DNA from: Sulfurimonas sp. HSL-1656
GTDB taxonomy: Bacteria > Campylobacterota > Campylobacteria > Campylobacterales > Sulfurimonadaceae
Assembly: GCF_039645585.1 (NCBI RefSeq)
Contig: NZ_CP147915.1
Location: 806,001 to 870,000, forward strand
DNA: 64,000 nucleotides
Direction of reading: 5' to 3'
Below are positions 8,199 to 37,542 of this stretch, one piece after another. The notes under the pieces were generated by a model. It worked only from the letters and a program-made list of their open reading frames with translations. It ran no database searches and was not told the origin of the DNA. The position numbers and the translations under genes are program-made. Every line of letters starts with the position of its first letter. Within the stretch, counting starts at the first letter, position 1.

Positions 8199-8930
8199 AT
8201 GAAAATTGCCATTATGGGGGCCATGGTCGAAGAGGTGGAGCCGTTCCTCGACGCGGGTGAGCACGAGCCGCTGCTCAAATATTTCAAGAAGCACAATGAC
8301 GTCGAATATGCCGGTAACCTCTACCACGAGGCGCGTTTCAAAGGCCTTGATATCGTGCTGGGCTACAGCAAGATCGGCAAGGTGAACGCGGCACTGACCG
8401 CCGCGACAATGCTCGAAAAGTTCGGCTGCGAGATGCTCCTTTTCACCGGGGTCGCGGGCGCGGTGAATCCCGAACTGAAAATCGGCGATCTGATCGCCGC
8501 GACGCAGCTGTGTCAGCACGATCTCGATATCACGGCATTCGGTCACCCGCACGGTTATGTGCCCGAAGGCAAGGTCTATGTCGAACCGTCCCGCGAGCTC
8601 CTGCGTATGGCCAAGAGCGTTGCCGAGGAGAAGGGGATCGAACTCAAAGGGGGGATCATCGCGACCGGTGATCAGTTCATCGCGGATACGGAGCGTAAGG
8701 CGTGGATCGAAAAGACGTTCGAGGCGGACGCCATCGAGATGGAGGGGGCGGCCGTCGCCGTCGTTTGCGATGCGATGCAGGTCCCCTTCTTTGTCCTGCG
8801 TGCGATCAGCGATGCCGCTGACATGGATGCAACCTTCGATTTTGACGAGTTTCTGAAACACTCTTCGCAGGTCAGCAGCAGTTTCGTCATGGGGATGCTG
8901 GAGAAGATCGCCGCCGCCCATGGTCAGTAA
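8199..8930 (+). CDS. mqnB: MTA/SAH/6-amino-6-deoxyfutalosine nucleosidase
   Basis: About 243 residues; ATG 8199 is preferred over the adjacent ATG at 8196 for spacing to the AGGG site and to match the family start MKIAIMGAM. Motifs are the GAM-x-EEV N-terminus, FTGVAGAVNP, GDQFI and the catalytic EMEGAAVA and SDAAD regions of the PNP/UDP phosphorylase superfamily. In Campylobacterota this enzyme cleaves adenine from methylthioadenosine, S-adenosylhomocysteine and aminofutalosine, serving both methionine salvage and menaquinone synthesis. It overlaps the next gene by 11 bases. Confidence 0.93.
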   Translation: MKIAIMGAMVEEVEPFLDAGEHEPLLKYFKKHNDVEYAGNLYHEARFKGLDIVLGYSKIGKVNAALTAATMLEKFGCEMLLFTGVAGAVNPELKIGDLIAATQLCQHDLDITAFGHPHGYVPEGKVYVEPSRELLRMAKSVAEEKGIELKGGIIATGDQFIADTERKAWIEKTFEADAIEMEGAAVAVVCDAMQVPFFVLRAISDAADMDATFDFDEFLKHSSQVSSSFVMGMLEKIAAAHGQ

Positions 8931-18192: not shown

Positions 18193-18225
18193 AAGGTTTT
18201 TTGATTATTTTGTACTGCAAGAAAA

Positions 18226-18288
18226 GCCTAACCCGGCGCGAGTCGGGGGCGGAAAGCTACGGATCTTCTCGAAGATGGCCGGGTTGCC
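18226..18288 (+). promoter_or_regulatory. GEMM-like (cyclic di-GMP-I) riboswitch aptamer, copy 2
   Basis: The sequence follows the GEMM-I layout closely: AACCCGGC, a GCGA GNRA tetraloop closing a 6-bp CCCGGC/GTCGGG stem, the core GGGGGCGGAAAGCTACGG, an ATCTT-CTCG-AAGAT hairpin, then GGCCGGGTTGCC. This last segment is nearly the classical GEMM 3' block. In known cases c-di-GMP binds between the stems and switches a downstream terminator or ribosome site. A terminator-like hairpin lies downstream at 18367. Recognition is by eye and has not been modelled. Confidence 0.7.
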
Positions 18289-18366
18289 AAAAGTAGGGTA
18301 ACCCGGTCGAATCTATTCCACCACTGTTTTGTTACCCACTTTTTGATTTGAGTACTTCGCTGCCTG

Positions 18367-28337: not shown

Positions 28338-28450
28338 CTTGCTCTTCTCCTTTGGTTTGAAACTGTGAGGGGTCAGAAACAATTGAACGCTTCCGACTAA
28401 CGACTAAGGTCTGTGTTTCTCAACCCAACAATCATACTGAGACAAATGAC

Positions 28451-29899
28451 TCAAGGTGCGGTCGTTGTCCACGCTACATTGGCCCTTGCTCTCGTTCCCT
28501 TCACGCGTATGAGAATGTTGCCGTTAATATCAGCATCATGCGGATTGAACTCCGCATCATTAATCGTATTGGGGTTGTCGCTCTCTTCCCACACCGTGGA
28601 GTACTTGACCCAAACTTCCATCGCGCCGTATGTTTTATCCGAGACGGCAAAATAATATGTCGCGCCGGGTGTCAGTCCCGTTACCTGATAGTAACTATAC
28701 CCGTCAGAATCATAAGTGTCCCCCTGACCGACCTGTACCGCAAAACTTTTGGTTTGGTTGTCTATCAATACCGGATCGGTCAGATTCCCTTCATTGACAG
28801 GAGGATCGATCAGGTTCATGATAAAAGTCCCATCGGTGATATCGACATTCACGCCTAATGTTCCATTTTCATCCGCTGTGCCAACGCGATCATTCGCCCC
28901 TTCGACATCGACCCAATTGCCATAACTGTTATAGTTTTCAACCGTCACCTCATAGCGCTTGAATGGTTCAAGTCCCACTACCCTATAATAACCTTCAGTG
29001 AATGTCCCAGGCCAGCCTCCATTATAGGGCAGATCTGCATAGTTTAATATTTTAGGTGACTCCGGGCTTCCATCATAGATACCGGTATAATCTTCCACGC
29101 TCAACATACTCAAGGTGTATTCCGTAATAGCCGCGCCGAAAACGGGTTCAACAAGTATGAATATCTCCCCGTTTGTATTGGCCGGAACTTCACACTCACT
29201 TATACCCTTTCCTTCGTCAAGAACCGGGCATTCATCTCCGGCCTCATAATCACCGAATCCATTGTCATAATAGATTTTCAAGGTTGCCCTCAGATCGGGG
29301 CTATCCACTCTTACTTTATAGTGCTGACCCGGATTGAGAGCGTGGACATACAGTGTGTCTCCATCGATAAAAGTATATGTCTCATTTTCATAGGTTGCGT
29401 ACATATTGCTGCGTGATTGAAACGGGAGCTGTTCGGTAATATCGAGCGGTGCGTCAATCGTGTGCATGTTTTGCTCAATCTGCAACATGTCTATGGTGAT
29501 TTGCGATCCGGTTTCTCCCCCCTCGATACCGAAATAGACATATCCATTCTCATCTGTACCCCCTATGCAACTATGGGCACTATCGGTCTGTTGCCCTACA
29601 ATACACTGTGAAATCAGATAGTCATCTGTTGCATAAAGAGAAACATGCGCCGCACCTCCTACGGATCGTGCCAGTACGGTGACATGCTCTGACGGTCTCA
29701 GTTTTACCTTATAGTATTTATTTTCCGCACTGGCGTCAGTGACGATCGTTGAGGCGTCCGATAGGACGATGGGAGAGATGCCTCCGTCTGTATTGAGAGG
29801 GTCATCCCCTGAAGACGATGACGTGCCTCCTGAACTTCCTCCTCCACATCCTGCCATCAGGAACATTGATAGACTGAGTGCCGCAAGTTTTAATTTCAT
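28451..29899 (-). CDS. Cassette gene: large lipoprotein, beta-rich, unknown function
   Basis: 482 residues from the ATG at 29899 with an AAGGAC site. The signal peptide ends in lipobox MAGC, followed by a Gly/Ser linker. The body has three or four repeated beta domains with YYKVKLRPSEHV, YYRVVGLEPFKRYEV and YYQVTGLTPGATYYF segments, like pre-peptidase C-terminal (PPC) or fibronectin-like folds that occur in extracellular proteins. No catalytic motif is seen. It is the promoter-distal cassette and no good attC follows it, so it may be the broken end of the array. Confidence 0.7.
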   Translation of the reverse strand: MKLKLAALSLSMFLMAGCGGGSSGGTSSSSGDDPLNTDGGISPIVLSDASTIVTDASAENKYYKVKLRPSEHVTVLARSVGGAAHVSLYATDDYLISQCIVGQQTDSAHSCIGGTDENGYVYFGIEGGETGSQITIDMLQIEQNMHTIDAPLDITEQLPFQSRSNMYATYENETYTFIDGDTLYVHALNPGQHYKVRVDSPDLRATLKIYYDNGFGDYEAGDECPVLDEGKGISECEVPANTNGEIFILVEPVFGAAITEYTLSMLSVEDYTGIYDGSPESPKILNYADLPYNGGWPGTFTEGYYRVVGLEPFKRYEVTVENYNSYGNWVDVEGANDRVGTADENGTLGVNVDITDGTFIMNLIDPPVNEGNLTDPVLIDNQTKSFAVQVGQGDTYDSDGYSYYQVTGLTPGATYYFAVSDKTYGAMEVWVKYSTVWEESDNPNTINDAEFNPHDADINGNILIRVKGTRARANVAWTTTAP

Positions 29900-29934
29900 T
29901 TTTGTCCTTTGTTGTTTTGAATTTTTACTGTTAG

Positions 29935-30001
29935 GGATAACGTCTGAAATGAGCAATCAAAAATTTGTCCGCGGTTTTTTCGACCGGGCCCCTTGTTGGT
30001 A
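29935..30001 (-). repeat. attC-like site between the RDD and lipoprotein cassettes
   Basis: 67 bp. Left box GGATAAC (minus strand GTTATCC), then a half-site like the others (CTGAAATGAGCAATCAAAAA), core CCGCGG, and right box GTTGGTA. The right half has diverged from the other sites. Confidence 0.65.
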
Positions 30002-30044
30002 ACCGGTTGGGATGCGCTTACTCCTTGTGCTATAGTCGCCATTA

Positions 30045-31265
30045 TCAAGGTTGATTTTCATAGAGCATTGCAAGCCATTCAGATGTTTCTTTTATCTGAT
30101 CTTTATAAAAAGATTTGTTCAGCATTCCTGACGGTTTTGCATACTGGTACTCACGCTTGTACCGTTCCAGCGCTTCTTCCCTGTTCTTGATATATCTCGG
30201 TAGAAACATCGCATACATCTGATCGACCGGCAGCATCTTTTGGCATGTCTGCGTGTTCGCACCTTTTTTCCATATATTGGCAATATTATCTTCAAGAGCA
30301 TTCACATCATTGAGGTCATAGTAGTAAAAATGTTTTCCCATATGATCCTCATTCATCTTCGCTTGCTTGATCAGGGTTTCATTATTGGCATATTTGTTGC
30401 GCGCATTTTTCCTAAAACTGCTACCCATCTCTATCCAGTCTGATTCGTTATGCTCTTGTGAAAGAAAATACTCAATACAGTTCAGCGCCAGATCTTTTTT
30501 GACATCGGCTTCAAAGATGTCATACATCCCGTTGGCTTCGATAAACTTCCGGCTGTTTAGCTCGAGTTCCCGGTTGTAAAAAATAATTCTTGAATCATTG
30601 TAATCATTTGTCGAATAGTGATGGGCAAAAGAAGCATTATAGGAACTATGACTCTGTTGAGCCAGGGTATAAAAGACCGATGTATAGATGATGAGATAGC
30701 CTGCCATCACAAGAAAAAGCAGTGTTCCGATTGTTCTTAGGATCTTCTGGCCTGCATAGCCTATGCCCGTCGTTTCTGCTGCAGCATGCTTTATTGCACT
30801 ATTGTCAACGACGACACTACCCACGATCAGATCGTGTATCATCTGCCTTTTTTGTGTAAAAACCATAATGAGGGGAGGAAGAAAAAAGAGGAATTGGGGT
30901 AATTGCTGAATGGTGGGGGAAGGGATGAGTATCATCTGATGTTGAAAACTTCTAATCAGAACATAGAGTACAAAAGGGATGATGCTGATAATCAACCTGT
31001 ATGAAGCCAATTTAAAAGAGAGGGGCTCCAGATCATTGCCAAGCACCTCTATGCCAAAGATCTTGCCGCCTATAGTGGCTTTCCATCTGACGACCATGAC
31101 AGTGTTGTAGACCCACCATACGACAGGAAGGATCAATAGACTTTGCATGTCTATCACCCTGGGGAGAATATTCAACACAAGTGAAATGATGAATAAATCT
31201 GCGACTGTAGCCAGAAGCCTCGAAAAAAATCCTGCATAAATTATCTCTTTATCCGTAGGTACCAT
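30045..31265 (-). CDS. Cassette gene: RDD-family membrane protein with large C-terminal domain
   Basis: 406 residues. The N-terminal half is an RDD domain: AGFFSRLLATVADLFII, then GGKIFGIEVLG and RQMIHDLIVGSVVV, with about four membrane helices, plus one further helix near residue 190. The C-terminal 200 residues (about 200-406) are soluble, rich in Asn, Tyr and Lys, and not recognised. RDD proteins occur in transporters and in envelope proteins without a common function. The ribosome site is weak. The stop lies 44 bases before the attC box, outside it. Confidence 0.75.
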   Translation of the reverse strand: MVPTDKEIIYAGFFSRLLATVADLFIISLVLNILPRVIDMQSLLILPVVWWVYNTVMVVRWKATIGGKIFGIEVLGNDLEPLSFKLASYRLIISIIPFVLYVLIRSFQHQMILIPSPTIQQLPQFLFFLPPLIMVFTQKRQMIHDLIVGSVVVDNSAIKHAAAETTGIGYAGQKILRTIGTLLFLVMAGYLIIYTSVFYTLAQQSHSSYNASFAHHYSTNDYNDSRIIFYNRELELNSRKFIEANGMYDIFEADVKKDLALNCIEYFLSQEHNESDWIEMGSSFRKNARNKYANNETLIKQAKMNEDHMGKHFYYYDLNDVNALEDNIANIWKKGANTQTCQKMLPVDQMYAMFLPRYIKNREEALERYKREYQYAKPSGMLNKSFYKDQIKETSEWLAMLYENQP

Positions 31266-31680
31266 TCAAACATTTCTTTCTAATTTTTTTATTATCTTAG
31301 CGCTGAAAAAGAAGATTATCGCTTAATCATATAAAAAAACCATCTTAGTGTTATATGAAATCCAGGGCAATGTGATAGAAAAACAATGTGTTCAGCTAAG
31401 GGATTTTTGGCGGAAAGCATTGCTAAACAACGGTATTTTGAAAGTCCTGGGGTGGCTGATGAGCTCTTTGATGTGTACACTGTTATTATTGAAGCGTTGT
31501 CATTCCGGGTGTTCACCAGCAGAACTAAACTCTTCGCTATGACTTGATTTCTGAAGTATCTGTTGGTCTTTCTGCTGCATTGAAGACAATGCATTTTTGG
31601 GTGATGCGGTCAAGGCATGACCCCCTCGATGTTGAAGGTCTAAAATACCCGTCCTGTGATGAAAAGGCAGATGACGTGCT
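31266..31680. other. 415-bp AT-rich region without a convincing gene
   Basis: Both strands have short ORFs only. A plus-strand frame beginning near 31387 gives about 50 codons, and minus-strand frames give 65 to 92 codons with no ribosome sites. The stretch 31498-31544 is bounded by GTCAT and ATGAC and resembles dispersed short repeats. No attC is recognisable here, although one would be expected between the small-protein and RDD cassettes. It may be a decayed cassette. Confidence 0.4.
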
Positions 31681-31908
31681 TTACTTCCCTCTGCTTTCAA
31701 ATCTCATGAGAGTGTCGCTGAGGTATTTCCGTATCTCTTTTAACGACTCATGCACCTGGACATATTTTTCTCTTATTTCCGGTTCATCAAAATAAAAATC
31801 GTCGCGATCGTAGGTCCCGATCTGCTTGAGGTTTTCAAAAGCCATATCGATGTGCTGAATGCGCTGTTCGATGCTTCTGATCAGTATCTTTTGATGATGT
31901 TGTGACAT
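31681..31908 (-). CDS. Cassette gene: small helical protein, unknown
   Basis: 75 residues, acidic-basic mixed and helical, with no signal peptide and no cysteine. The ribosome site AAGGA is 6-7 bases before the ATG, and codon use looks genuine. A potential 38-codon ORF from about 31995 overlaps its start in another frame and might be a coupled leader peptide. The 158 bases between it and the beta-lactamase stop contain no clear attC. I do not recognise the family. Confidence 0.55.
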   Translation of the reverse strand: MSQHHQKILIRSIEQRIQHIDMAFENLKQIGTYDRDDFYFDEPEIREKYVQVHESLKEIRKYLSDTLMRFESRGK

Positions 31909-32066
31909 TTGATTTCCTTGTTTAGGTTGACTCGTTTAGGCTGTTCGACTGCATATTCGGCATGATAATTCTTCAGCGCTATAGAGTCTATATGCATGAT
32001 CCGCTCTTTTGCTTTTACGCATCTCTTTTCGTCATAGAACACGTAAAATGAGTAACCGGGAAACCA

Positions 32067-32873
32067 TTATATCAGGCCCTGAAGTTTCAAACTCGCTTTT
32101 GCCAGTTTGACGCGCTCCTTGGCATCAGAGGGTTTTTTGATGTCAATATTCAGGGCAAACACGTAAATGTACCCTTTTTTCTCCAGCCATCCCACCAGCC
32201 AGCCGACGCCGTTGTCCGGAGCGTTCTGCCAGCCGGTTTTACCGTAGAGCTTCCAGTCTGCCCCCTCTTCGAGGAAGAGGATCCCCCGTACGCTTTTTTG
32301 CACCTGTTTCGGAAGCGGCAGCCTGTCCTGAACGAGCGCAGACAGGAATTTTACCTGTTCGAGTGCGCTGATCTTTAGCGGTCCGTCGAGCCAGAACCTG
32401 TCAACAACTTTTCCCGTCTCCGCGTTGCCGTAATGGAGTTTGACGAGGCCGGCACGCATACGTTCCAGACCGATGCGCCGTGCAAGTTCCTGGTAGATCG
32501 GTACGTTGGAGATGGCGATGGCCCTGCGCAACCCCATATCATGTCCCCACTCCGGAATAAAAGGCTTGGCAGGGCCTTTGTAGGGCAGGGGCTCATCCAC
32601 GCTTTTGACGACACCCGACGAGAGCCCGATGAGCGTATTGGCAATTTTAAAAGTCGATGCGGGGATATGGCGTGTTTCAGTACGGGTTTGGTTGTATCCA
32701 ATGTACGCATTCCCAGTCATATCGTAGAGTATGAACGTCCCGTCGACATTCGCATTGTGAAAGAGCCCGGCGATCTTGGCATTTTCTTCCCAGCCGAAAC
32801 CTAGCGCAGGAAAGAGGAGAAGGGCTGCCATGATGAGCCTGTAACTTTTTCTGCCTACAGGGTTCGTTCGCAT
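32067..32873 (-). CDS. Cassette gene: class D (OXA-type) beta-lactamase
   Basis: 268 residues from the ATG at 32873. A signal peptide (basic start, LIMAALLLFPALGFG) is followed by the class D landmarks in the right order and spacing: S73-T-F-K76 (serine nucleophile and the lysine that is carboxylated in class D enzymes), S122-N-V124, Y148-G-N150, FW161 in an FWLDGPLKIS segment, and K212-T-G214. These are the hydrolytic residues of OXA enzymes, so a periplasmic beta-lactam hydrolase is likely; the spectrum cannot be told. The reading frame continues upstream through an attC half-site to ATGs at about 32934 and 32928, so the true start is uncertain. Confidence 0.88.
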   Translation of the reverse strand: MRTNPVGRKSYRLIMAALLLFPALGFGWEENAKIAGLFHNANVDGTFILYDMTGNAYIGYNQTRTETRHIPASTFKIANTLIGLSSGVVKSVDEPLPYKGPAKPFIPEWGHDMGLRRAIAISNVPIYQELARRIGLERMRAGLVKLHYGNAETGKVVDRFWLDGPLKISALEQVKFLSALVQDRLPLPKQVQKSVRGILFLEEGADWKLYGKTGWQNAPDNGVGWLVGWLEKKGYIYVFALNIDIKKPSDAKERVKLAKASLKLQGLI

Positions 32874-32919
32874 TGGACCGCCCGCGGGTTTTTGATTGGT
32901 CTCCTCTGATTTGTTATCT
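32853..32919 (-). repeat. attC-like site at the beta-lactamase 5' end, left half rearranged
   Basis: The right half is intact: core CCGCCCGCGGG, TTTTTGATTGGTCTCC, right box GTTATCT. The left half lacks the usual CAATCAAAAA block. The left box is either GCCTACA (32853) or CTGTAAC (32839). The beta-lactamase start codon lies inside this site. Confidence 0.65.
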
Positions 32920-33324
32920 TTCATAAACATGCCCCAACTGATTTTCCAGATAATGATGTAAATCACTATTGTAAGTGAGGACCAATTCACCCCCATAGCC
33001 AGAATGTTCGGTATACGCTATTACCAGTGCTTTTCTTGTGGAAAGTTTTCCTTCACCAACAAAATGTCTATTTTCTTCTGTGAGGCCATTGATGTTTTTA
33101 AAAGAAATGCTGTTTTTCGCTAGCAATTTGTATGCAACGAGTCGATCATCAAGTATATTGATTTTATAAATCACCAAGAAACAACATAAGAGATAGAATA
33201 GACCTCCAATCAAAAAGACTATTCCCGCAATCATTTGAACCTGAAACATGGATACACTAATGAGTGACAGTATCGTGGAGACAAGAAAATGTAAAGCTAT
33301 CTCAAATTGGTAAAATGTTTTCAT
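32914..33324 (-). CDS. Cassette gene: small membrane protein with possible PH-like domain
   Basis: 136 residues. Two membrane helices at residues 10-55 are followed by a soluble beta-rich region of about 80 residues (INILDDRLVAYKLL to the end) that resembles small bacterial PH-like membrane proteins, but similarity is weak. Its TAA stop lies in the right box of the adjoining attC, a tight cassette fit. No catalytic residues are evident. Function unknown. Confidence 0.6.
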   Translation of the reverse strand: MKTFYQFEIALHFLVSTILSLISVSMFQVQMIAGIVFLIGGLFYLLCCFLVIYKINILDDRLVAYKLLAKNSISFKNINGLTEENRHFVGEGKLSTRKALVIAYTEHSGYGGELVLTYNSDLHHYLENQLGHVYER

Positions 33325-33346
33325 GTCTAGAGTCTATTCCTTTGCC

Positions 33347-33418
33347 TGATAACGTTTGAAATGGGCAATCAAAAAGCCGCCCGCGGGATGCATATGGGTG
33401 TGCAGGGTCCTGTTATTT
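33347..33418 (-). repeat. attC-like site between DUF3592 and small-membrane-protein cassettes
   Basis: 72 bp. Left box TGATAAC; half-site TTTGAAATGGGCAATCAAAA; core CCGCCCGCGGG; right box GTTATTT. The right half is diverged, but total length matches the best sites. Confidence 0.65.
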
Positions 33419-33471
33419 TGTACTGGCCGCCGCTTGCTTCGTGCCAGGGATGAGCACTCAAGGACGGATCT

Positions 33472-34458
33472 TCATGCAGAGGCCTTCTCAAACCTGACCT
33501 TGCGCCGGTAGAGGTACCTGCCTATCGCGAAAGCGAAGATGGAAAAGAGCCCCAGCGCCAATGGCCCTCCAAAGTTAAAGCCCCCATCGATCATCGCCCG
33601 GTGTGGTTTTTTCGGATCATACAGAACTGTGACATGGTCTCCAATATGCCATGAGGGATGCCGACTGTATGTTGTGCCGTTAAAACGAACTGCACCATGC
33701 GCATCAGTATGAAACGATACGACCGGCGCATAAGTCCGTTCGCCTTTGTCAAAAGCACTCTGCTGTGCGACAATCGTTCCGTCTGTTCTGACGGAAACAT
33801 CGACCAGTGAGTTGATGTCTTGCAGCCAATAGAGTGAAACGACCAGGGTGACCGCGCCGATAACATGCATCCAGATATAGGCATCTTTTGAGGCGGTCTC
33901 ATCATAGGTGGCATTTTCCCTGATGAGATCATTTGTCTCACGGGATGGGAATATCTTCCATTTTTTACGTTGATAGCTTTCGACGGCATGATTGGAATTG
34001 TTTTGCGTCGGTAGCGGATTTAATTTACGTAGAATGACAACACCGGCAGGTATCAGGATAACGGGGACGAGCAACAGGATGACATCAAATGCCGTCGCAA
34101 GATAGATAGTGGAAAACAGCAGCCCCATCACACTGATGACCGAGGAGATAATGGGCCTTGCCATCTGCTTGAGACGCGCTTGGCTATGGTCGTTTCCGAT
34201 AACAAGGACATCGACATCTTGACCGATCATGTACTCGCGCGAGTTTCTGCCCAAAGCAGATTGAAAGGAATATTCCTCGCCGCCGTGATGGTACTTGACG
34301 ATGGGGTAATAAACATAACCTCGGTTATGTTCTTCACGGTTATAACCGAAAATTTCTCCTTTGATCGTTGCCGCTTTGGCGCGAAACGCATAGGTATCAG
34401 TCCAGAGATAAATGCCGATAATCAGCATCGCCAGTCCAATAAGATAAAAAATAATCAT
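33472..34458 (-). CDS. Cassette gene: DUF3592 membrane protein, two domains
   Basis: 328 residues with two DUF3592 units: residues about 5-140 (LIIGIYLWTD, then YVYYPIVKYHHGGEEYSF) and about 195-320 (LVVSLYWLQD, then YAPVVSFHTDAHG), each followed by a membrane helix pair. DUF3592 proteins place a small beta domain outside the membrane; function is not known. Its stop lies 53 bases before the attC right box, so extra sequence remains at the 3' end of the cassette. Confidence 0.75.
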   Translation of the reverse strand: MIIFYLIGLAMLIIGIYLWTDTYAFRAKAATIKGEIFGYNREEHNRGYVYYPIVKYHHGGEEYSFQSALGRNSREYMIGQDVDVLVIGNDHSQARLKQMARPIISSVISVMGLLFSTIYLATAFDVILLLVPVILIPAGVVILRKLNPLPTQNNSNHAVESYQRKKWKIFPSRETNDLIRENATYDETASKDAYIWMHVIGAVTLVVSLYWLQDINSLVDVSVRTDGTIVAQQSAFDKGERTYAPVVSFHTDAHGAVRFNGTTYSRHPSWHIGDHVTVLYDPKKPHRAMIDGGFNFGGPLALGLFSIFAFAIGRYLYRRKVRFEKASA

Positions 34459-34547
34459 GGTTTATCGCTCTGTGAACCGTGTGACATTATCTACTACCTT
34501 TTCAATAGGGTGGAATATGTTTTTCCGAATGCGTTGATAGAAAGGTT

Positions 34548-34605
34548 ATGAACGCTACTGGACAGTATGGCGCAGTTTCGATTGGTCTCCAATGATTTGT
34601 CAGGC
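34548..34605 (-). repeat. attC-like site between GNAT and DUF3592 cassettes
   Basis: About 58 bp. Right box GTCAGGC contains the GNAT stop; GATTGGTCTCC matches the other right halves; left end ATGAACGC reads GCGTTCAT on the minus strand. The core is shortened and lacks CCCGCGGG. Confidence 0.5.
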
Positions 34606-35085
34606 TTTATACTCACTGCGCTCGAGCCCCATATGGATCAGTCCAACCCGCATGCCCGAAGGATTTATGCGTTCTTCGACGGCATACGGCTTGAAGTGCA
34701 TTCTTGCATATAGCAACAGGGCAGCCGTGTTGTCGTTGAAGACCGAAATCCTTACCTCATGAACATCATACTTATCGAATGCTTGCCGGGTCATGTGTGA
34801 CACTAAAAGACGCCCAACTCCCTGGCCGCGAAACTCTTTTGCCACAACGACATTGCCGATGAAGGCATAGTGTCCTTGCTCAATGTTGTATAGATTAGCA
34901 AAACCAATCACCTTTCCGCCTTCAACAGCGACAGTCAGCTCTTCCCTTGACGCAGCCAAAAACCGGACCTGATCGACTGTGAAGGGGTGTGTTCCTTTTG
35001 GGTAGACACGGAACAGTTCATCCAAAGTCGGGACCAACTGGGCAATTGCCCCGAAGTCAAGTGGTGTAGCTTCACGTAGTTCCAT
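34600..35085 (-). CDS. Cassette gene: GNAT-family N-acetyltransferase
   Basis: 161 residues. The acetyl-CoA binding motif A is RGQGVGRLLVSHM (about residues 95-107) after the IGNVVVAKEF strand, with a C-terminal NTAALLLYARMHFKPY motif B. The acceptor could be an amine drug, an amino acid or a protein; nothing in the sequence fixes it. GNAT genes are common integron cargo. The stop is inside the attC right box. Confidence 0.85.
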   Translation of the reverse strand: MELREATPLDFGAIAQLVPTLDELFRVYPKGTHPFTVDQVRFLAASREELTVAVEGGKVIGFANLYNIEQGHYAFIGNVVVAKEFRGQGVGRLLVSHMTRQAFDKYDVHEVRISVFNDNTAALLLYARMHFKPYAVEERINPSGMRVGLIHMGLERSEYKA

Positions 35086-35100
35086 GCACGTTTTCCCTCA

Positions 35101-35170
35101 GCGTAACATTTAAAATGACCAGTCAAAAAGCAACCCGCGGGTTTTTGATTGGTCTCCTGTTTTGTCAGGT
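35101..35170 (-). repeat. attC-like site between LysE and GNAT cassettes
   Basis: 70 bp. Left box GCGTAAC; half-site TTTAAAATGACCAGTCAAAAAG; core CAACCCGCGGG; TTTTTGATTGGTCTCC; right box GTCAGGT holding the LysE stop. This is one of the two best-preserved sites. Confidence 0.85.
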
Positions 35171-35767
35171 TCTATAAAGCAATAGTGACCCTGTGCCGAT
35201 CATTACACTCCCGGCAACTTCATTCATGTGCTTTTGCGTCCGTTCGTTTTTGAAGAGCTGCCTCGCACGGGATGCCGAATAGGCATAAAACGACATAACC
35301 GCACCCAGAATGGAAGAGACGATAAAGGCTATGGAGAAAATATCCAAACTGCTCAATGCATTCAAGTCTACAAATGTGGGTAGAAATCCCAGATAGAACA
35401 AGATGACTTTTGGATTGCCGAGCGTTATGGAGAGGCCGCTTAAAAAGCGGTGCTTTTTTGAAGCGGCAATTTCCATTTTTTCCGGATGGGTGCGCCACAA
35501 TCTAATCCCAAGCCAAATCAGGTACCCCGCACCCAAATACTTGATGATGAGAAACATTGTCTCAAATGTTTCTGCTATGGCTGCAAGACCAAAAATCGCG
35601 AACAGAAGAAATATCAAATCACCCGTAACAATCCCTGCGATAACAGGTAACGTATTTCTGAATCCCGAAGCCAAAGCCTTGGATACGGTAATAAACACTC
35701 CGGGCCCCGGTGTCACGGCTAAAACAAACATGGCGGCAGATAAACCTGCAATACTGTAAAAAGTCAT
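35165..35767 (-). CDS. Cassette gene: LysE/RhtB-family exporter
   Basis: 200 residues with about six membrane helices. The N-terminal LAVTPGPGVFITVSKALASG is the LysE family signature (P-G-P), followed by GIVTGDLIFLLFAIFGLAA and LGAGYLIWLGIRLW. The family exports amino acids or their analogues. Its start overlaps the cupin stop by 4 bases (ATGA), so both genes share one cassette and are co-translated. Substrate unknown. Confidence 0.9.
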   Translation of the reverse strand: MTFYSIAGLSAAMFVLAVTPGPGVFITVSKALASGFRNTLPVIAGIVTGDLIFLLFAIFGLAAIAETFETMFLIIKYLGAGYLIWLGIRLWRTHPEKMEIAASKKHRFLSGLSITLGNPKVILFYLGFLPTFVDLNALSSLDIFSIAFIVSSILGAVMSFYAYSASRARQLFKNERTQKHMNEVAGSVMIGTGSLLLYRT

Positions 35768-36126
35768 GGTTCTACTCTAATTTGTGATGCATTTTCTCGA
35801 TCACCATGGCTGGGTGGTGTGGATACCACTAAAAACGCTAAATCTTTTTCATGTTCATTGCTTAACGTGTGCGCAATACCTGCAGGAATATGAAAGCCTT
35901 CATTGGGATGGAGGATGTGTATTTCGCCTGCTACTTCAAGCGTTGCAATGCCGGAAAGAATATAGAAAAATTGCTCCGCCTTCTTATGAAAGTGGCGAGT
36001 TTCATAGGAACCTTCGGGCACGCGTTCCTGAATCACGCTTAGGTTTTTAGAAGCGGCAAGGTGCCAACCTTCACAGTTGGTAGCCCATAAATAATGGTCA
36101 GCATTTTTCGTAGAAACGATTGGCAT
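35764..36126 (-). CDS. Cassette gene: cupin-domain protein
   Basis: 120 residues forming a single cupin barrel. Metal-binding motif 1 is RHFHKKAEQFFYILSG and motif 2 is GFHIPAGIAHTLSN, with His and Glu residues placed to hold a metal. AGGAG precedes the ATG. No close functional assignment is possible; it may be a small isomerase, dioxygenase or sensing cupin acting with the LysE exporter encoded next to it. Confidence 0.85.
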   Translation of the reverse strand: MPIVSTKNADHYLWATNCEGWHLAASKNLSVIQERVPEGSYETRHFHKKAEQFFYILSGIATLEVAGEIHILHPNEGFHIPAGIAHTLSNEHEKDLAFLVVSTPPSHGDRENASQIRVEP

Positions 36127-36139
36127 TTGATACTCCTAT

Positions 36140-36211
36140 GTCTAACGTTTAAAATGAGCAATCAAAAAGCCGCCCGCGGGTTTTTGATTGGTCTCCTTTG
36201 GTTTGTTATAT
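36140..36211 (-). repeat. attC site between DUF4238 and cupin cassettes (best-preserved)
   Basis: 72 bp. Left box GTCTAAC (minus strand GTTAGAC, perfect GTTRRRY); CAATCAAAAAG pairing with TTTTTGATTGG around the core CCGCCCGCGGG; right box GTTATAT containing the DUF4238 stop. The two halves fold into one long imperfect hairpin, as attC sites do. Confidence 0.88.
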
Positions 36212-37147
36212 AGTGACATTACGCTTGTCCAGAAATTTCATCATTTCATAATTTACTTCATCGGGATTCCTATGTGTAATCATAAATTGATGTACATTTA
36301 GCCAAGTTTTGAGATTAATTGCAGATGCAGTATCCCCTTGAAGCGAATAGTATTGTGAATGAGGTTGCTCGAACATGTCATCCATAATCAAAACACGTGT
36401 TGGACTAATTGGAAATGTAATTTCTGTACCTTTTGTATTAAGACCATAATTTCCCATCTCTCCAATAAGTCTATTGGAAATTATCAAAGGATTATCAGAA
36501 GTAATAAATTGTTCGGACTCTGAAAAAACTACTGACCAACGTTTTTTCATGAGCATTTCTGCAATTTCAATTGCCGATGATTTTATTGTGTCAACAAAGA
36601 ATTTTTGTTTGTCATAATCTTTCGGATTTGAATATCTACCCCAATCAGATGAATCAAATTCAAAAACTCCTTCTTTTGTCTTAATGCTGCCAATCATGGG
36701 GTTTCCATTTTCATCTTTAGGGAGAGAATCATAAAAGTCAATCATTTGCTTTTGTAAATGATCATATTCATTAAGTCTTTTTGGATGTCGTAGGAGCATC
36801 GTAGCTAGAAACAATGAAATACCTTTTCGGAAAGCCTCATTGTTTAAATCAATAAAGCTATTTGCAAAATCCGGCCAAATTTGGCACATTAATGATTCAA
36901 GTGAAGCTAGTTCATCTTCCATCTTCCAACATCGTTCGCCATTTTCATCTTTTGGCGAATACAAATAACGCTTTGCAGCAATATCTTTTATATTGACTTT
37001 GGTTGGATCACCTTCCTCTTTTGAAAAAATCCAAACTTGTGATTCTTTTTTCTTCCTCGTATCTAAAGTAGCAAACTCTTTTAAATAAAAGCGAGGAACC
37101 CAATGCTGTTTTATAGGTTTAGGCTGTTTTTTTGTAGACTCAGACAA
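36206..37147 (-). CDS. Cassette gene: DUF4238 protein
   Basis: 313 residues from a TTG start with GAGGAAG upstream. The N-terminal QHWVPRFYLKEFA motif (with its His) and the internal ITSDNPLIISN identify DUF4238. The protein is strongly AT-coded compared with neighbouring chromosome. DUF4238 genes recur in mobile and defence-rich regions, but no function is established. It is the first cassette, next to attI, so would be the best expressed. Confidence 0.85.
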   Translation of the reverse strand: MSESTKKQPKPIKQHWVPRFYLKEFATLDTRKKKESQVWIFSKEEGDPTKVNIKDIAAKRYLYSPKDENGERCWKMEDELASLESLMCQIWPDFANSFIDLNNEAFRKGISLFLATMLLRHPKRLNEYDHLQKQMIDFYDSLPKDENGNPMIGSIKTKEGVFEFDSSDWGRYSNPKDYDKQKFFVDTIKSSAIEIAEMLMKKRWSVVFSESEQFITSDNPLIISNRLIGEMGNYGLNTKGTEITFPISPTRVLIMDDMFEQPHSQYYSLQGDTASAINLKTWLNVHQFMITHRNPDEVNYEMMKFLDKRNVTI

Positions 37148-37161
37148 TTTTCTTCCTCGCT

Positions 37162-37168
37162 ATATAAC
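37162..37168 (-). other. Putative attI crossover (GTTATAT)
   Basis: Minus-strand GTTATAT at the 5' edge of the first cassette matches the box at the other end of that cassette (36205-36211), as expected after insertion at attI. Confidence 0.5.
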
Positions 37169-37416
37169 TATTTATTCATTCCCAAACTGTGTCATATTGC
37201 TGGAATATCCTTTGATATTCGGAACCCATAAGTGTCCCAGTATTGGATATTTAATCGCAATATTAAACAAATTGAAATATATATGTTAATACTACGCTTT
37301 TTTTCTAAAATTATTTCTGTTTGAACGTCCTCGGTATTTTGATACTCGGACAAAGTGTCTGTCTATCATTGAAAGATGTGCTTATTGGACACTATGTCCT
37401 GCGTATTGAAGGATGA
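37169..37416. promoter_or_regulatory. Integron platform remnant: attI/promoter region with inverted repeats
   Basis: About 250 bases, AT-rich and without a gene. It should hold attI and the cassette promoter. It contains GAATATC-CTTT-GATATTC (37203-37220) and two GACA-N3-TGTC repeats (37349-37359 and 37387-37399, the second extended to GGACA/TGTCC). These could be operators or recombinase sites. No intact IntI N-terminus is readable here. Confidence 0.4.
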
Positions 37417-37542
37417 ATATTATGTCGAAAAAAAAACTTCTTGATTTTGGTCGGGCACAAAAGCGTCGAAACGAGGATGATCTACACCCATGTCGTGAAG
37501 GAGCTGAACAAAGAGAGCATCAAAAGCCCGCTGGACTTTTGA
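37417..37542 (+). pseudogene. intI: intI remnant (C-terminus of integron integrase)
   Basis: The frame ending in TGA at 37540-37542 reads VGHKSVETRMIYTHVV and ends SIKSPLDF. This is the end of an IntI-type tyrosine recombinase: the GHK segment holds the last conserved His and IYTHV the catalytic Tyr, and the SPLDF ending is typical. Only about 33 codons remain; the catalytic Arg-His-Arg parts and the whole N-terminus are absent and the upstream frame is blocked at 37414. Its plus-strand orientation, away from the cassettes, is the canonical one. The gene appears to have been deleted internally. Confidence 0.8.

Follow-up and report, generated by a model that had tools for sequence, protein, structure and literature searches.

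The window, by which we mean the whole 64,000-nt stretch of DNA analysed, almost certainly contains what is left of a sedentary chromosomal integron that has lost its integrase and whose array, now frozen, persists as a CALIN. Judged from the sequence, an integron origin is strongly supported, because the R'' boxes are complementary to the leading ends of their own cassettes, the attC stems carry compensatory changes, an attI site and an integrase relic are rightly placed and oriented, and the same attC family stands beside an integrase (IntI) in a genome of the same genus, here called G288. The label of CALIN, or dead integron, is applied because no IntI exceeds the cut-off in the genome, the integrase gene (intI) of the window is deleted, and four of the six attC sites are decayed. 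A CALIN consists of at least two attC sites with no intact integrase in the neighbourhood, and here two intact and two degenerate sites are found in that situation. The region had been described, in a sequence-only reading, as a chromosomal integron cassette array. Its integron origin is upheld, but the array is no longer intact, with intI reduced to a stub and most of the sites damaged.

Genes and boundaries of the array

According to the ORF list and family searches, ten consecutive ORFs of unrelated functions, all on the minus strand, occupy positions 28451-37147, as the sequence-only reading had stated. Its remark on low GC is also correct: the array region has 44.1%, against 57.8% in the left flank and 58.5% in the right flank. 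Cassette 1 (36206-37147) encodes a DUF4238 protein of 313 aa (PF14022, E 1.2e-30), and its leading end, GTTATATA, pairs with its own R'' box, TATATAAC, at eight of eight positions. Cassette 2 (35165-36126) holds two genes, one for a cupin (35764-36126; PF07883, E 1.2e-15) and one for a LysE-type exporter (35165-35767; PF01810, E 5e-40); it is also found at the same locus of a sister genome, G378, with 94% identity over 1106 bp. Cassette 3 (34600-35085) encodes a GNAT acetyltransferase (PF00583, E 2.7e-19), cassette 4 (33472-34458) a DUF3592 protein (PF12158, E 6.4e-17), and cassette 5 (32914-33324), with a GC content of 35%, a 136-aa protein without a match in family searches.

Next in the array lies a class D beta-lactamase gene (32067-32851) without an attC of its own. 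Its top family is OXA-50-like (NF012161, 269 bits, cut-off 250), and all the catalytic motifs, STFK, SxV, YGN and KTG, are found in its translation. The OXA-50-like gene is also present in G378, where it lies immediately behind an attC and travels together with the following 75-aa ORF (31681-31908, from the ORF list). A gene for an RDD-domain membrane protein (30045-31265; PF06271, E 5.3e-13) and a lipoprotein-like gene (28451-29956; ORF list and family search) complete the series. Neither the repeat search nor the covariance model described below found attC sites between the OXA, 75-aa and RDD genes. Since this stretch is without internal sites, entry of its three genes as single cassettes is unsupported, and some of the ten genes may therefore not be cassette entries. 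Thus the proposal that attC sites separate the ten genes holds for some of them, but not for the cupin and LysE genes, which share one cassette, nor for the undivided OXA, 75-aa and RDD genes. As to the extent of the array, the start proposed at 37168 falls exactly on the G^TT position where crossover at attI is predicted. Its distal end is less certain, as the lipoprotein-like gene, itself an uncertain member, has no attC downstream. No transposase or intron ORF appeared in the array region in the ORF list and family searches. Elsewhere in the window, a c-di-GMP-I riboswitch aptamer was detected at 18216-18291 (plus strand, 55.2 bits).

The attC sites

All six sites that had been reported were recovered by a repeat search, with the common core CAATCAAAAA / CCGCGGG / TTTTTGATTGG. 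A 21-mer core, allowing at most three mismatches, matches five times in the window and never in 100 shuffles. A covariance model was then built from 15 sites outside the window, taken from two genomes, and the window was scanned with filters off. The site nearest to attI, attC 1 (36143-36209, minus strand; model match 36138-36213), is intact and scores 100 bits (E 3.6e-23; fold z -5.2). It is the one site for which both strands were compared, and its hairpin (36139-36213) is more stable on the bottom (plus) strand, at -15.4 kcal/mol, than on the top strand, at -11.2 kcal/mol. The second site, attC 2 (35104-35170, minus strand; model match 35099-35172), is intact as well (62.9 bits, E 2.3e-13; fold z -3.8).

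The four remaining sites, also on the minus strand, are damaged. Two are full-length but degenerate: attC 4 (about 33345-33421; 25.9 bits, E 1.5e-3), in which the R''-side half is altered and the stem is gone, and attC 6 (29933-30007; 32.8 bits, E 2.2e-5). The other two are half-sites. attC 3 (34564-34610) retains its R''/L'' half and has lost its R'/L' half; it belongs to the repeat family and was missed by the covariance model. attC 5 (32872-32921), whose R'/L' half is deleted, scores 14.1 bits (E 2; model match from 32859). Both keep just the half adjoining their own cassette. Bottom-strand folding had been suggested as a check on the sites; attC 1 and attC 2 alone of the six fold better than shuffled sequences, whereas the hairpins of the degenerate full-length sites at 33345-33421 and 29933-30007 do not rise above them. 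By covariance score, attC quality thus declines away from attI, from a nearly perfect nearest site to damaged distal ones. Such a gradient is expected if new cassettes enter at attI and old sites are not repaired. The end boxes conserved at the window sites are TAAC and GTTA, and the full RYYYAAC/GTTRRRY consensus that had been claimed is satisfied in part. No match to an attC family was returned by an Rfam scan. The strong likeness among sites that had been taken as the mark of a sedentary chromosomal integron is borne out by a mean column identity of 86% over the 15 sites of two genomes.

Under the integron mechanism, the box that precedes AAC is predicted to be complementary to the opening bases of its own cassette, which now lie behind the GTT of the preceding site, the two having been joined in the circle. 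This pairing was examined over six bases in 41 cassettes of five genomes. R'' boxes matched their own leading ends at a mean of 4.59 of 6 positions, against 3.04 for shuffled partners, and a value as high was reached in none of 20,000 shuffles, a contrast that is somewhat inflated since some cassettes are orthologues and not fully independent items. The same boxes matched the bases that now follow the site, those of the next cassette, at 3.02 of 6 positions. This pairing is the trace of cassettes having been inserted in circular form at G^TT. Stem covariation points the same way: among 80 model matches from five genomes, an alignment that leans toward structure because it is fitted to the model, double-sided changes occur in 17 of 20 pairs (49 such cells, against 4.8 when shuffled), and 94.2% of cells are paired, a pairing that is destroyed when the partner is slid. 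In addition, the sequence common to the attI copies ends exactly at GTTA in a three-way alignment. By these measures the attC-like sites of the window are real.

attI and the integrase relic

At the head of the array, attI and the upstream region of intI (37168-37421, plus strand) were recognized by homology to the attI of G288 and to a second copy at 966 kb of the same chromosome. Over 292 bp, window positions 37165-37455 share 89% identity with the attI and intI start of G288, and the window attI is 93.6% identical over 235 bp to the 966-kb copy. The crossover is predicted at G37168^T37167 on the cassette-sense strand. Next to attI lies the relic of the integrase gene (37422-37542, plus strand), in which about the first 12 codons are fused to about the last 30. 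Its C-terminal part matches TIGR02249 (37447-37536, E 7.3e-4), and positions 37448-37540 show 92.5% DNA identity to a 93-bp stretch at the end of the G288 intI. Relative to that gene about 870 bp are absent, and the junction falls at about 37448-37457 in an imperfect repeat (TTGCTCGGGaACA and CTGCTCGGGcACA in G288, TTGGTCGGGCACA in the window). The deletion itself is seen directly in the sequence, and it probably arose by recombination between these short direct repeats. With the relic on the plus strand and the cassettes on the minus strand, the arrangement is the usual one of integrons; where an integron has an intact intI beside attI, the window has the stub only.

In the complete genome, no full-length IntI scored over the TIGR02249 cut-off of 265, and the top score was 59 bits. 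The higher matches are to XerC/D-like proteins and are interrupted where the integron-specific segment is missing. Recombinases of this type, at 577, 977 and 1747 kb, were weighed as candidates for the integrase and rejected, as they are without this segment and far below the cut-off. The second attI platform, at 966230-966462 (8230-8462 of locus L053), is also integrase-less. It is syntenic with the integron of G288, and it has kept attI and lost essentially all of intI. The ends of the deletions differ between the two platforms, and to judge from these ends the loss of the integrase at 966 kb was a deletion event of its own. Further model sites lie at about 525, 963-965, 1209, 1346, 1469-1470 and 1716-1718 kb; about five attC loci exist besides the two platforms.

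Sister genomes and wider distribution

The complete genome of G288 has an intact IntI (TIGR02249, 420.6 bits) adjoining five attC sites of the window's family. At the locus of the window itself, only C-terminal scraps of intI are left in G378, G288 and a third sister genome, G264 (matches of 73, 46 and 30 bp, respectively). Integrase loss at this platform is thus common to all four of the complete genomes in this genus, be it through one event or several. Several attC loci of the genome are also occupied in sister genomes, with different contents. A cassette of about 1 kb (14938-16016 in L057; 5501-6579 in L065) is 98.5% identical between G288 and G378 and occupies different chromosomal places, beside the intI platform in G288 and at an integrase-less locus at 1361 kb in G378. 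The flanking DNA of the two species is about 92% identical, far less than the cassette, which is evidence for cassette movement. At about 1388-1390 kb of the chromosome studied here (L188, 12116-14219), other AT-rich genes take up about 2.1 kb and no recognisable attC was found; the same locus carries cassettes in G378, G288 and G264, and is a hot spot in common with variable content. Off-target (attG) insertion was probed by looking for empty sites at the 1209, 525, about 1388 and about 712 kb loci; no clean one was found, because those loci that could be compared are filled with variable DNA in the sister genomes.

The survey of related genomes that had been proposed found the window's attC family in 29 of 61 genomes from its taxonomic family, as well as beside the full IntI of G288. 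Across the order, 61 of 399 genomes have an IntI above the TIGR02249 cut-off of 265 bits. Named relatives with IntI include Sulfurovum and Sulfurimonas MAGs, and in Sulfurimonas sp. RIFOXYB12_FULL_35_9 six sites of the window's attC family adjoin the integrase. A review has already listed Campylobacterota among integron phyla, and it names loss of the integrase and off-target insertion as ways in which CALINs arise (PMC8618304); IntegronFinder detected two CALINs in Sulfurovum sp. NBC37-1 and an In0 and a CALIN in Sulfurimonas autotrophica (PMC10295459, Table 1). A rarity of such arrays in this phylum is therefore not supported.

Orientation relative to replication

The direction of replication was derived from dnaA, at about base 390, and from the sign change of GC skew near 1.3-1.4 Mb. 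By hand count, cassettes oppose replication at six of the seven attC loci of the genome, where the lagging-strand template thus carries the attC bottom strand. When the loci of the genus are taken together with those of the genome G415, about 12 are against and 4 with replication, a difference that is not significant (hand count), and of seven intI platforms of complete genomes away from the terminus, five are against and two with replication (hand count). The orientation rule for large chromosomal integrons (SCIs) is the reverse (PMC11023631). It may be, though it is unlikely, that arrays of the genus, lying mostly against replication, have their attC sites more exposed, remain small and scattered, and have repeatedly been selected for integrase loss, leaving several frozen platforms per genome.

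Alternative explanations

Several features count against the reading as an integron remnant, namely the decay of four of six sites, the partly matched box consensus, the siteless OXA-RDD stretch and the orthology of some cassettes in the pairing test. Two other readings of the whole array were weighed. The two intact attC sites, one of them adjoining attI, the intact attI and the related integrases of sister species would all suit a functional sedentary array that is still served by an integrase, but the window intI is a stub left by a deletion of about 870 bp, and the genome search, with its maximum of 59 bits against 265, contradicts this highly improbable reading. The chance is negligible that the sites are an unrelated dispersed palindromic repeat, REP/MITE-like or terminator-like, lying by coincidence between the genes of an island. 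Their palindromic core is indeed strong and copies are numerous across the genome; however, R'' pairs specifically with the leading end of its own cassette, the orientation is fixed and opposite to intI at intI-bearing loci, and the GTTA boundaries are common to attI. None of this would be expected of a mobile repeat, which is disfavoured for that reason.

A narrower question is how the half-sites arose. Group IIC introns and IS1111-attC elements insert into attC centres, and the half-sites of the window face one another across the DUF3592 and OXA-RDD segments, as if non-cassette DNA such as the OXA-RDD segment had entered there. Such an origin is very unlikely, since the sites at 33345 and 29933 are full-length, a transposase or intron ORF is absent, and the OXA gene of G378 (locus L067) follows an intact attC with a GTTA junction. 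On the last observation, insertion into attC centres was rejected as the main cause of the half-sites, and because the G378 site is intact, the half-site before OXA is explained by a simple deletion of the 3' half in the window's genome.

Discussion

Under the integron-remnant reading, a working integrase would have inserted circular cassettes at attI (G37168^T) and displaced older ones leftwards, a step that we infer from the box pairing together with known integron biochemistry. intI then lost about 870 bp, probably via short direct repeats, and became the stub. After this loss the array has stayed frozen, its distal attC sites have decayed, and it is now a CALIN. Cassettes probably moved between loci while the lineage had an integrase, because the attC clusters elsewhere in the chromosome belong to the same family. 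G288 still keeps that integrase, at the second platform (the 966-kb equivalent).

This kind of element is already known. In Xanthomonas, an ancestral chromosomal integron underwent repeated intI inactivation and left CALINs at several loci (PMC12444791). This is the closest parallel, sharing an ancestral chromosomal integron, lineage-specific inactivation of intI (through deletions among other lesions), leftover arrays that are stable and a distribution over several loci. The present case differs in phylum and attC family, and in having two integrase-less attI platforms with both deletions visible. The Campylobacterota elements detected by IntegronFinder (PMC10295459) are alike in phylum and element kinds, whereas genome and genus differ and that report has no analysis of sites, junctions or cassettes. 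With the Vibrio cholerae superintegron the array has in common one family of highly similar attC sites and an intI divergent from the array at attI. In contrast, the arrays here are small (about six sites in the window, five in G288), the integrase is absent, the attC sites, of about 66 nt with a 10-bp A/T-rich arm stem, are spread over several loci, and the arrays lie against replication, whereas the SCI rule is the opposite (PMC11023631).

What the window offers is an unusually clear case of CALIN formation through integrase loss. CALINs are common, and their origins are usually guessed. Here, the intact integron of a near relative, two independent visible deletions and loci of an attC family shared with four sister genomes make the loss of the integrase readable base by base. 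Campylobacterota thus appear as a widespread and little-described integron reservoir, although a fuller account may exist in the subscription literature, and the cargo of this reservoir consists of ordinary accessory genes, a class D beta-lactamase among them.
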